Source: Gammaproteobacteria bacterium
GTDB taxonomy: Bacteria; Pseudomonadota; Gammaproteobacteria; SZUA-152
NCBI GenBank assembly: GCA_022627515.1
Contig: JAKEGK010000075.1
Span: 1 to 34,509, forward strand
Reading direction: 5' to 3'
Length of the DNA stretch: 34,509 bases
This document shows positions 10,373-28,012 of this stretch, piece by piece. Numbering within the stretch: position 1 is the first letter of the stretch; each line of letters starts with the position of its first letter. The notes beneath the pieces are model-generated. The model was not told where the DNA came from. It searched no databases and was given only the letters and a program-made list of their open reading frames with translations. The translations under genes and the position numbers were made by a program.

Positions 10373-10698
10373 TCCGGTTCATCCTTTGATTTTTCCTTGA
10401 GCCGCGCGCGCGAGGCTCTTTCGCGCACCTTGCCTTGCATTCTGGCAAGTTGTAATGGGCTGACCGTTGTCTGCGGAATAAAATTATCCAGTTGATCCAA
10501 AGCGCCCAGTTCGCGCAACACGGCAATCAGAGTCGACAGTTTTGCGCTGCCGGCCTCCAGCGCTTTAATGGCGTTCAGCGACAACATCACCGCATCGGCC
10601 AGTTCTTTCTGGGTAATGTTTTTGCGCAGCCGCAGCGCCTTGATGCGCTGGCCGAGTTCTTTCTGGATTGCCTTATCTGAGAGCGTATAGAAGTCCAT
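10366..10698 (-). CDS. hipB: HipB-like helix-turn-helix antitoxin
   Basis: This 110-residue protein has a Cro/C1-type helix-turn-helix at about residues 12-65 (LGQRIKALRLRKNITQKELA, AVMLSLNAIKALEAGSAKLS, TLIAVLRELGALDQLDNFIP). The pattern R...RK..TQ.ELA......S...I...E.G is the classical XRE motif. A basic tail (RERASRARLKEKSKDEPEW) follows. It precedes and overlaps hipA, the standard HipBA order, and should both bind HipA and repress the operon. The four AGGCTGTTAT-type sites directly upstream are the likely targets. Confidence 0.9.
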   Translation of the reverse strand: MDFYTLSDKAIQKELGQRIKALRLRKNITQKELADAVMLSLNAIKALEAGSAKLSTLIAVLRELGALDQLDNFIPQTTVSPLQLARMQGKVRERASRARLKEKSKDEPEW

Positions 10699-10862
10699 AA
10701 CAGCCTTATTATAGGTTTTTATACCATAATTAAATCTAAAACAGCCTTTAATAAGGCGATTATAGGGTATCGAATTGAACAGTCAAGAAAATCACATAAG
10801 AGTCTTATTACAGGCTGTTATATTGATAATAAAGTTTAAATATTCTTTTTTAAGGCTGTTAT
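10697..10862. promoter_or_regulatory. Four-copy operator array upstream of hipBA
   Basis: The 10-mer AGGCTGTTAT or a one-base variant occurs four times: reversed at 10697-10706 (ATAACAGCCT) and 10738-10747 (AAAACAGCCT), and forward at 10812-10821 and 10853-10862. Extended copies share CTTATTA-A/C-AGGCTGTT. Centre-to-centre spacings are about 41, 74 and 41 bases, so the array is symmetrical. The first site touches the hipB start codon. Multiple spaced operators are known for HipB autoregulation, so this array probably mediates repression by HipB-HipA complexes. AT-rich sequence between the sites would contain the promoter. Confidence 0.65.
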
Positions 10863-11206: not shown

Positions 11207-11758
11207 ATGAAACAGTATCTTTTTTATGGTCTGACAGTTGCGTTGTTGTGGTCTTGCGCCAGCAAGCCCGCGATTGATTTTGATACCTCGGCTGATTTTA
11301 GTGCTTATAAATCCTACGCCTGGTCAGATCAAACCGATGAACAGACAAAAAAATCGCAAGCCGATGCGTCACTGGTGCATAAACGCATTCGGGAATCCAT
11401 CGAAGCAACATTGCAAGCGAAAGGAATGCAAAGCGTCGATACCGCACAAGCGGATGTATTGGTCACCTATCATCTTTCCATGCATATAAGCGGGTATTCG
11501 GGCAGCAGCGTGTTCTTTGGCCTTGGAAGTTTTAGCCACCATTCGGCTGTGGGGGTGTCGGTTGGCGTGCCTGTCAGTCAACAGCCGATCGAAGAAGGCA
11601 CGCTGGTGATTGACATCATCGATGCGAAGAAAAATTCCCTGGTATGGCAGGGCGCCGGTGCGAGGACTTTGTCACGCAGCGTATCACCGGAGAAAGCCCA
11701 GGCAATGATCGATGAAGTGGTGAAGGAAATTTTGGCGGGCTATCCGCCCAAAAAATAG
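11207..11758 (+). CDS. DUF4136 family lipoprotein (copy 3)
   Basis: The start at 11207 gives MKQYLFYGLTVALLWSCASK, a clean lipoprotein signal with the acylated cysteine at position 17. The longer track ORF from 11126 adds a charged leader that would bury the signal. The mature protein has FDTSADFSAYKSYAWSD, IRESIEATLQAKGM, ADVLVTYHLSMH, a GYSGSSVFFGLGSF glycine/serine segment, EEGTLVIDIIDAKKNSLVWQ and MIDEVVKEILAGYPPKK. This is DUF4136, with the same closing PPKK as copy 1. The ribosome site is weak. The stop codon TAG lies at the edge of a foldback element whose flanking ATAG repeats include it. Confidence 0.85.
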   Translation: MKQYLFYGLTVALLWSCASKPAIDFDTSADFSAYKSYAWSDQTDEQTKKSQADASLVHKRIRESIEATLQAKGMQSVDTAQADVLVTYHLSMHISGYSGSSVFFGLGSFSHHSAVGVSVGVPVSQQPIEEGTLVIDIIDAKKNSLVWQGAGARTLSRSVSPEKAQAMIDEVVKEILAGYPPKK

Positions 11759-11956
11759 TTCTACTTTGTTACTTTAATTTATGTTAATGAACAATCCCGC
11801 ACGGGAAGCAAAGGCGTCTGGCAAGACACGCCGTAAACACCTCCATTCTTGTTTTCAAGAGAATGCTCGATGGCGGCATCCCTGCCGCCAACGGTCTTGC
11901 CAGACGCCTTTGTTTCCCGAGCTGTGCACGCGGCTATTTAATGTAACAAAGTAGAA
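11759..11956. mobile_element. MITE-like foldback element A
   Basis: Terminal repeats TTCTACTTTGTTAC (11759-11772) and GTAACAAAGTAGAA (11943-11956) are perfect 14-mers. Inside, the 25-base arms at 11803-11827 and 11894-11918 pair with one mismatch (core AAGGCGTCTGGCAAGAC). ATAG flanks both ends (11755-11758, 11957-11960) and could be a target-site duplication, with TA as the minimal alternative. There is no ORF, so it is non-autonomous. The centre contains GGCGGCATCCCTGCCGCC and matches the centre of the foldback element at 27292-27474. Confidence 0.75.
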
Positions 11957-12030
11957 ATAGATAAGCGTGAATTTAACATTTAACGGAGAAGACAGCGGCG
12001 TGCAAAGTCACCGCTGGATTGGAATGGAAC

Positions 12031-26452: not shown

Positions 26453-27007
26453 ATGGTCAGACTGGAGACACCGGTATGTGAATTCGGCAAACCCGCCATT
26501 GATTTTTCATTGCCAGGTGCCGATGGCAAAAAATGGACGCTGCAGGATTGCAGGGGAAAGAACGGTTTGCTGGTGATGTTTATCTGCAATCATTGCCCCT
26601 ATGTGAAAGCGGTTCGTGAGCGCATTGTGCGGGATACCAAAGAACTGAAAGCGTTGGGTGTCAACAGCGTCGCCATTATGTCAAACGACCCAGGTTATAA
26701 CAGTGAGGATTCGTTTGAGAACATGAAAAAAGCCGCGAAACAATATGGTTTTGGTTTTCCTTATTTGTTCGATGAAACCCAGGAAGTGGCGAAAGCCTAT
26801 GGGGCGGTTTGCACCCCGGATTTTTTTGGTTATAACGCAAATCTGGAGTTACAGTATCGCGGCCGCCTGGATGCCAGCCGCAAGGAAACGGCGCCACCGG
26901 ATGCGCGGCGTGATCTTTTTGAAGCTATGGCCGAAGTGGCCAGAACTGGTAAGGGGCCGAGAGAGCAAATACCCAGTATGGGCTGTTCCATAAAGTGGAA
27001 GGAATAG
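26453..27007 (+). CDS. Thioredoxin-fold (AhpC/TSA-like) protein
   Basis: The ATG at 26453 follows a strong GGAGG. The 28 residues upstream in the track ORF are considered untranslated. The 184-residue protein begins LETPVCEFGKPAIDFSLPGA, then GLLVMFICNHCPYVKAVRER (active-site region with a single CP-cysteine pattern NHCPYVK), VAIMSNDPGYNSEDSFENMK, FPYLFDETQEVAKAYGAVCT, PDFFGYN and LQYRGRLDAS. This is the 'thioredoxin family protein' related to AhpC/TSA and ResA folds, with the conserved NHCPYVKA box. The second cysteine of a CxxC is absent, so a peroxiredoxin-like or one-cysteine mechanism is more likely. No export signal is visible. Confidence 0.85.
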   Translation: MVRLETPVCEFGKPAIDFSLPGADGKKWTLQDCRGKNGLLVMFICNHCPYVKAVRERIVRDTKELKALGVNSVAIMSNDPGYNSEDSFENMKKAAKQYGFGFPYLFDETQEVAKAYGAVCTPDFFGYNANLELQYRGRLDASRKETAPPDARRDLFEAMAEVARTGKGPREQIPSMGCSIKWKE

Positions 27008-27041
27008 ATAGCTTCCGTTATTTTTAAAAAAATGGATCTCC

Positions 27042-27171
27042 CCCCAGTTGTAGTGGGTAAACTCATCCAGGACGATCGCTTGCACAAGTCAACGTACCGG
27101 GAACATGGACTTAACTGCGAAAAGCTTACAAATACTTGGCCTGCGGCTTCCCTCACAACAGGGTGATTCTA
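27042..27171. repeat. Left arm of a large outer inverted repeat
   Basis: Blocks in this arm are repeated in inverse at 27475-27576. CCCCAGTTGTAGTGGGT (27042-27058) matches the reverse complement of 27560-27576 at 16 of 17 bases. GAACATGGACTTAAC pairs with GTTAAATCTATGTTC. The innermost 21 bases (27151-27171) match the reverse complement of 27475-27495 at 20 of 21. Between these blocks similarity is lower, so the arms look like diverged copies of one sequence. Confidence 0.75.
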
Positions 27172-27289
27172 ATTGCCGGCACAACGCGCATCCCTGCGCG
27201 GTGCGCCTAAACTCGCCGGTCGCTTCGGTCATCCATGGCCTCTCGCGACACTAATACATCCTGTACGGCGTCCCTGGCGAGTTTACAAT
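27172..27289. mobile_element. TA-bounded foldback element B
   Basis: The 118-base element is bordered by TA at 27170-27171 and 27290-27291. Its ends are ATTG and CAAT (TAATTG/CAATTA with the flanks). The subterminal arms AAACTCGCC and GGCGAGTTT pair perfectly, and GCGCATCCCTGCGC forms an internal palindrome. It has no coding capacity. Confidence 0.65.
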
Positions 27290-27291
27290 TA

Positions 27292-27474
27292 GAACCTATC
27301 TCAAAATTGATAAGTTAGCGATTTCGGGGGACGCATTTCAAAACCGTCGGCGGCATGGATGCCGCCGTCGAGCTTACAGGGATGTATTTACAGCGTGTTT
27401 TGAAATGCGCCCCCGGAGTCGATAACTTGGTTTCCGCGGCGTTCTTTGCTGAATTGTAATACTGAGATAGGTTC
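27292..27474. mobile_element. TA-bounded foldback element C (MITE-like)
   Basis: The 183-base element is bordered by TA at 27290-27291 and 27475-27476, as expected for Tc1/mariner-IS630-type insertion. The termini GAACCTATCTCA/TGAGATAGGTTC are perfect 12-mers. Inner arms at 27312-27344 and 27397-27428 pair over ~30 bases (GCATTTCAAAAC/GTTTTGAAATGC). The centre has GGCGGCATGGATGCCGCC. The inverse of the centre shares ACACGCnGTAAA and GCTCGAnGGCGGCATCC with element A at 11.8 kb. Confidence 0.75.
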
Positions 27475-27576
27475 TAGAATCATCCTGTTGTGAGGCAAGT
27501 ATTGAGTAATCTTTCCGCCGTTAAATCTATGTTCTTCCAAACCTGCAACACTATGCCCAACCCACTACAATTGGGG
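27475..27576. repeat. Right arm of the large outer inverted repeat
   Basis: This is the inverse partner of 27042-27171. It starts TAGAATCATCCTGTTGTGAGG, the inverse of the end of the left arm, and ends with ACCCACTACAATTGGGG. Elements B and C sit exactly at the TA centre between the arms. Confidence 0.75.
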
Positions 27577-27583
27577 AAGAGCC

Positions 27584-28012
27584 TTAAAAATAAACGCCGG
27601 CATTGACAACAAATCCGCTCCAGCCAAAAAAGATATATTTTAATTCTCCGTATCCTTTGCGCGCTGCGTTGTAGTTGAAATTCATTCCGATGCCGAAGTT
27701 CAAACCCGTATCGGAGTCCGCGTAATTGATTCCTCCCAGACCATAGTAGCGGGTGCCGGGATTCAGAATCTGAAAATCCAGGTCCAGCACGACTTCCTCC
27801 AGATCAAAATCAAACGCGATCGCGGGTGCGATGCGGGTTTTGGGGGATACCGGTTTGACATGGCGTCCCTGTACCATGAGTGAAGAATTCTTGAAGTGAA
27901 ACGCGCCACTGGCGCCATATTGTCCTGAACGCTCGGCATGCGCTGACGTTCCGGCGCAGATTAATGTAAGCGCAAGCAGGGAGCTTGTTCTTGTTAATAT
28001 GTTTCTGCTCAT
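27584..28012 (-). CDS. Small exported beta-rich (barrel-like) protein
   Basis: Start at 28012 gives MSRNILTRTSSLLALTLICA...GTSAHAE, a clear signal peptide. The longer track start at 28051 would add 13 polar residues before it. The mature ~115 residues contain alternating strands: YGASGAFHFKNSSLMVQGRH, RIAPAIAFDFDLEEVVLDLD, RYYGLGGINYADSDTGLNFG, GIGMNFNYNAARKGYGELKY and GFVVNAGVYF. The terminal phenylalanine suggests an outer-membrane protein with about eight short strands. No family was recognised. A GGGGGA stretch precedes the ATG. The gene ends immediately next to the nested repeat cluster. Confidence 0.65.
   Translation of the reverse strand: MSRNILTRTSSLLALTLICAGTSAHAERSGQYGASGAFHFKNSSLMVQGRHVKPVSPKTRIAPAIAFDFDLEEVVLDLDFQILNPGTRYYGLGGINYADSDTGLNFGIGMNFNYNAARKGYGELKYIFFGWSGFVVNAGVYF

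Follow-up and report, generated by a model that had tools for sequence, protein, structure and literature searches.

A dispersed hairpin repeat with predicted CsrA-type loops on a putative IS5-type MITE inside an older intergenic hairpin

TA targets, which flank MITEs of the IS5 subgroup that we take to be named IS427, are typical of IS630 elements as well. The SELEX consensus of CsrA is RUACARGGAUGU, and the repeats of CsrB read CAGGA(U/A/C)G (PMC7652899). TwoAYGGAY (RF01731), placed by Rfam in clan CL00106 together with E. coli CsrB, has been proposed as a CsrA binder (PMC4333381). Ysr224 (RF02770), described as a single Yersinia sRNA, is among the most prevalent bacterial sRNA annotations (PMC9029176). 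Among short chromosomal repeats, CGTC-tagged REP dimers are reported inside 41-bp palindromes in H. neapolitanus (PMC3733652). Here we analysed a 34,509-nucleotide stretch of a gammaproteobacterial genome (contig JAKEGK010000075.1; the whole stretch is called the window). In the reading that we consider probable, an old hairpin with arms A and tip B received one insertion of an IS5 (IS427-like) MITE, C, that bears a further hairpin, D, and the tips of B and D are predicted CsrA/RsmA decoys.

As the original prediction had stated, the region 27042-27576 is built of nested inverted repeats. Inverted pairs are present at 27042-27058/27560-27576 (94%), 27147-27171/27475-27499 (92%), 27290-27308/27458-27476 (89%) and 27324-27344/27397-27417 (90%), and the fold of the region has a z of -13.3 against dinucleotide shuffles. 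Once C is excised, the outer arms reach about 27015 and about 27600, past the limits of 27042 and 27576 first given to them, and align with a score of 116 compared with 30 +/- 5 (maximum 58) in 500 shuffles. Because the left gene ends at 27007 and the right gene, on the other strand, at 27584, the outer repeat occupies the gap and just touches the end of the right gene. The diverged, locus-specific left arm A (27015-27175), delimited by alignment to the right arm without C, is followed by tip B (27176-27285, minus strand) and by the tip-proximal end of the right arm (27286-27291), which closes with the target TA of C. The rest of the right arm occupies 27477-27600.

Removal of C alone (27292-27474 plus one flanking TA) gives an unbroken stem, GATTCTAATTG/CAATTAGAATC, with B at its tip. 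The C-less sequence reads ...CACAACAGGGTGATTCTAATTG-[B]-CAATTAGAATCATCCTGTTGTG..., the stem is identical at 21 of 22 positions up to B, and the ends of B, ATTG...CAAT, prolong it further. Since the stem is continuous up to B without C, the outer hairpin has B as its natural tip, and it follows from the same arrangement that the TAs at 27170 and 27290 are complementary to each other. TA dinucleotides are indeed present at 27170, 27290 and 27475, as predicted, but they do not all count as insertion footprints: the first mirrors the target TA of C and is no footprint, and only the copies at 27290-27291 and 27475-27476 form the putative target duplication. Likewise, of the two TA-bounded foldback insertions originally proposed, C stands, with its TA target and its relatives in the genome, and B, the ends of which continue the outer stem, is unsupported as a second one; equally unsupported is the sequence in which two elements would have entered the outer centre, as removing C already makes the stem continuous. 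Solo copies tell the same two parts apart, in that the host genome holds relatives of C, no full copy of B elsewhere (partial ones only, up to 59 bases, on contig C45) and no other copy of the outer arms.

On its minus strand B forms short hairpins with the words CAGGGATG, CATGGATG, CAGGATG and CAGGGACG, four words of the CsrA-site loop type. A loop scan of B returned GTACAGGATGTAT at 27258 and CGCGCAGGGATGCGCG at 27190; the exact D motif is absent from B, and the D covariance model gives no match to it.

Element C (27292-27474, plus strand) is a short, 183-bp multi-copy element with inverted ends GAACCTATCTCAAAATT, TA on both sides and no ORF of its own. A 561-base query gave 71 matches in the host genome (E <= 10), nearly all to C. 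When a single mismatch is allowed, its end motif TAGAACCTATCTCA occurs there 31 times, compared with 0 for the reversed control. In 12 other C copies found by homology, TA adjoins 14 of the 24 ends, against a TA background of 4.6% in the window; the remaining 10 ends are presumably decayed. The description of C as a MITE with a TA target, bounded at TA, is thus borne out by its homologous copies. The nesting is real as well, with C sitting inside the outer hairpin, in its right arm. C appears to be a single later insertion into that arm, with TA duplicated. One C-family copy without the hairpin suggests a GATAA repeat, a single event that may be a deletion.

Exact C-type ends are present in 14 of 370 genomes of the class. 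In other genomes such ends enclose unrelated interiors, and elements down to 29-46 bp occur. One genome (G037; loci L110-L129 and L150-L157) has 85 C-type ends and 264-bp elements, and where its contigs break off behind C-like ends (L119, L127) they share an identical element that is readable for 132 bases only. In a further genome, G311, GAACCTATCTCAAAAT ends bound an 833-bp element, with TA on the right side only, that contains a 265-aa ORF for an IS5-family transposase with DUF4096 and DDE_Tnp_1 domains (NF033580, IS5, 203.9 bits; cut-off 110). The same ends follow the 3' ends of IS5 transposases at several contig ends of another genome (G062). The sole complete transposase found between C-type ends is therefore of the IS5 family (IS427-like), not of the Tc1/mariner-IS630 type originally proposed. 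An IS630 parent of C was rejected, the only host DDE_3 (IS630-type) gene, on contig C35, having no such ends within its locus. On this evidence C is assigned to the IS5/IS427-like group and not to IS630, which corrects the family assignment of the MITE. No match to the G311 transposase and no C-family transposase was found in the host genome, and the mobility of C is therefore historical at best; we infer that an IS5-type transposase, no longer found in the host genome, once mobilised C.

Within C, the D hairpin (27317-27423, plus strand) consists of a stem and a tip that displays a pair of ANGGAN hexaloops, CGGCGGCATGGATGCCGCCG and TACAGGGATGTA. A covariance model built from 55 other-species loci, none of them from the host, matches 27289-27428 with 101.8 bits (E 1.9e-25) and also 11796-11949 on the minus strand (E 1.5e-19). 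The latter match lies in a second MITE of the window at 11756-11959, which belongs to family F, has ends TAGTTCTACTTTGTTAC (also given as TTCTACTTTGTTAC) and carries another D hairpin. Elsewhere in the window, at 10697-10862, an inverted repeat with 67-base arms (70% complementary) and a loop of 32 bases adjoins two ORFs named by eye, one HipA-like and the other short and HTH-like. D is carried by unrelated MITEs: outside the C family it occurs in families E (ends CACTGCTGTCCCACAAA) and F and in several hairpins with other arms, and in a distant relative (G243) with 282 D matches it is embedded in repeated palindromic elements whose ends again differ. The hairpin is missing from six F copies and present in two, which makes its addition to F the most likely course; the two hairpin-bearing copies show a 5-base repeat, GCACG (GCACT in one), as a single event. 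At L059, L074 and L078, C-family MITEs are adjoined by F-family MITEs at a common TA, and adjacent insertion of the two families therefore recurs. On host contig C35 (L158), a truncated IS630-type transposase is joined directly to a D/F fragment.

The D tip motif GAGCNTACAGGGANGTATTYACRGCGTG, with two mismatches, was found in 46 of the 370 class genomes, with none for the reversed control, at up to 282 copies per genome. At least 117 D loci are present in public genomes. Among the matches listed, titles were all Gammaproteobacteria or had no rank below Proteobacteria, and the hosts include Marinobacter, Rheinheimera, Microbulbifer, Halopseudomonas, Luteimonas and Stenotrophomonas. E. coli genomes gave no D match; plasmids and phages gave weak or partial matches only, none convincing and, in phages, none as hairpins. 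Searched in the literature by sequence string, the D tip had no match and the C ends had unrelated matches only, and no account of a dispersed D family turned up in open papers queried with sequence strings and a small number of terms.

In 88 of 107 D loci an inner hairpin shows an ANGGAN hexaloop with three or more closing pairs, compared with 24 of 2340 random windows. The 88 inner hairpins sit on 59 different stem-loops, and several of the remaining loci have CAGGAYG. The apical loop ACAGGGANGU fits both the CsrA SELEX consensus and the CsrB repeats; it is invariant by design, as it was part of the search pattern. At many D loci a GGA-rich stretch lies immediately 5' of the outer stem (alignment A1, L279-L395; of 67 loci, 36 have A at -1, 29 have G at -2 and 28 have G at -3), possibly a third GGA site. 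D aligns over its full length with Ysr224 (E 1e-4 for the window copy, 1.5e-4 for L307) at 29.7-36 bits, below the gathering threshold of 70, and that model represents the strand opposite to D, on which the loops read CAUCC and not GGA. The TwoAYGGAY model scores 18.7 bits in the window, over B, and 33.9 bits at best (L316), compared with a gathering threshold of 43. Since D falls below both thresholds and the Ysr224 model lies on the other strand, binding of the D tips by CsrA is a prediction from sequence, to which we give about equal chances of being right or wrong. csrA was not found in the approximately one quarter of the host genome searched.

Most D tips sit on a stem; where found, these stems have a median length of 27 bp and are mostly 25-33 bp long, with a different sequence at each locus. 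Double-sided changes were seen in 26 of 32 predicted pairs in the 55-locus alignment; because these loci were chosen for their clear hairpins, the fraction of paired positions is overstated, though not the diversity of pair types. Orthologous D pairs show a hairpin at the same site in which the stem sequence has changed yet remains paired, with tip-anchored arm identities of 22/28, 12/30, 14/25 and 14/23, and at L303/L367 the tip points the other way with respect to its flanks. No target duplication above chance was detected around D hairpins in other species, and no enzyme linked to D was found; the interspecies empty-site pairs L303/L311, L319/L311 and L290/L292 are strongly diverged in sequence. 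The four orthologous sites, the inverted tip and the lack of a general target duplication would all suit a neutral D, neither mobile nor regulatory, with stems kept by replication template-switch correction and a tip spread by gene conversion or by riding on MITEs. This is a serious possibility, held at less than even strength: it does not account for an ANGGAN loop that persists on 59 different inner stem-loops, nor for a tip that is invariant across the class.

Alternatively, D hairpins could be REP/REPIN-like repeats moved by a RAYT (REP-associated tyrosine transposase). A degenerate RAYT-like ORF lies at 691-1395 of the window and scores 32.3 bits with NF047646, for which the cut-off is 80. 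RAYT matches occur in 19 of 46 D-bearing genomes compared with 49 of 324 D-free ones (odds ratio 3.9, p 1e-4), and D has the chromosomal distribution of such repeats, which in H. neapolitanus are reported to lie within palindromes (PMC3733652). We nevertheless regard a RAYT origin as unlikely. Several D-rich genomes lack this RAYT subgroup (G235 with 84 D copies, G097 with 62, G382 with 56 and G058 with 44), whereas G305 and G329 are rich in it yet have no D; no RAYT-like ORF was found in the 8-kb D loci, and D stems, unlike REP stems, are not common between loci. With an association that is weak only, the RAYT was rejected as the mover of D.

That the hairpins are transcription terminators or stabilisers of mRNA ends accords with the position of the window copy between convergent genes, but is quite improbable given the mixed gene orientations around D in other genomes (+ + 18, - - 23, + - 18 and - + 16 by rough ORF calls), apparently divergent pairs included. 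At L299 (about 2811-2839), a D hairpin lies within a 711-codon open frame and is read through in frame. Finally, the idea that B and C are both IS630/Tc1-mariner-type MITEs, inserted in either order at the central TA of the outer palindrome, agrees with the three TAs, with the TA targets of IS630 and with the GATTCTAGAATC left when B and C are both taken out, but is very improbable because taking out C alone gives the longer continuous stem, B has no full copies and only ATTG/CAAT as its ends, and the one complete transposase found inside C-like ends belongs to the IS5 family.

The favoured reading, an old hairpin entered by one IS5-type MITE, would have the following course. A locus-specific hairpin of arms A and tip B would long have occupied the gap between the convergent genes. 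The 183-bp non-autonomous C would then have entered a TA of the right arm, duplicating it, and would have brought in D with its conserved two-hairpin ANGGAN tip on a site-unique, still-paired stem. Transcribed by read-through, the B and D tips might act as RNA docking sites, or decoys, for CsrA/RsmA, a step that we put forward more cautiously than the others. Extended to the whole class, dispersed hairpins at up to 282 per chromosome, with pairs of CsrA/RsmA-type loops on fast-changing but paired stems and partly borne by MITEs, could tentatively be viewed as a mobile, distributed CsrA decoy system, a proposal that we rate as speculative. If D tips do bind CsrA, a large, shifting collection of repeats would determine how heavily a global regulator is loaded in many Gammaproteobacteria, and the common sRNA annotation Ysr224 would correspond to one face of the D family. 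Even if CsrA does not bind, D clearly exemplifies a conserved loop module whose stems diverge quickly while staying complementary, and it permits selection to be tested against template-switch correction in palindromes.

Compared with known systems, C resembles the IS427-like MITEs of the IS5 family in its inverted ends, its TA flank and the DUF4096 and DDE_Tnp_1/NF033580 transposase found between like ends; it differs in being a 183-bp element without an ORF that bears a foreign D hairpin in a host without the transposase. D resembles REPs, REPINs and CGTC-tagged repeats in being short, chromosomal and present in many copies on both strands, but it conserves the loop tip, whereas its long stems vary from site to site and covary. 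To the single Yersinia sRNA Ysr224 it is related at about half the gathering cut-off. With TwoAYGGAY and the CsrB clan D shares two AYGGAY/ANGGAN loops on a long stem, the paired ANGGA(N) hairpin loops of that clan being found in D at the 88 of 107 inner loops counted above; TwoAYGGAY is one sRNA gene, whereas D is a dispersed, multi-copy repeat with locus-specific stems.
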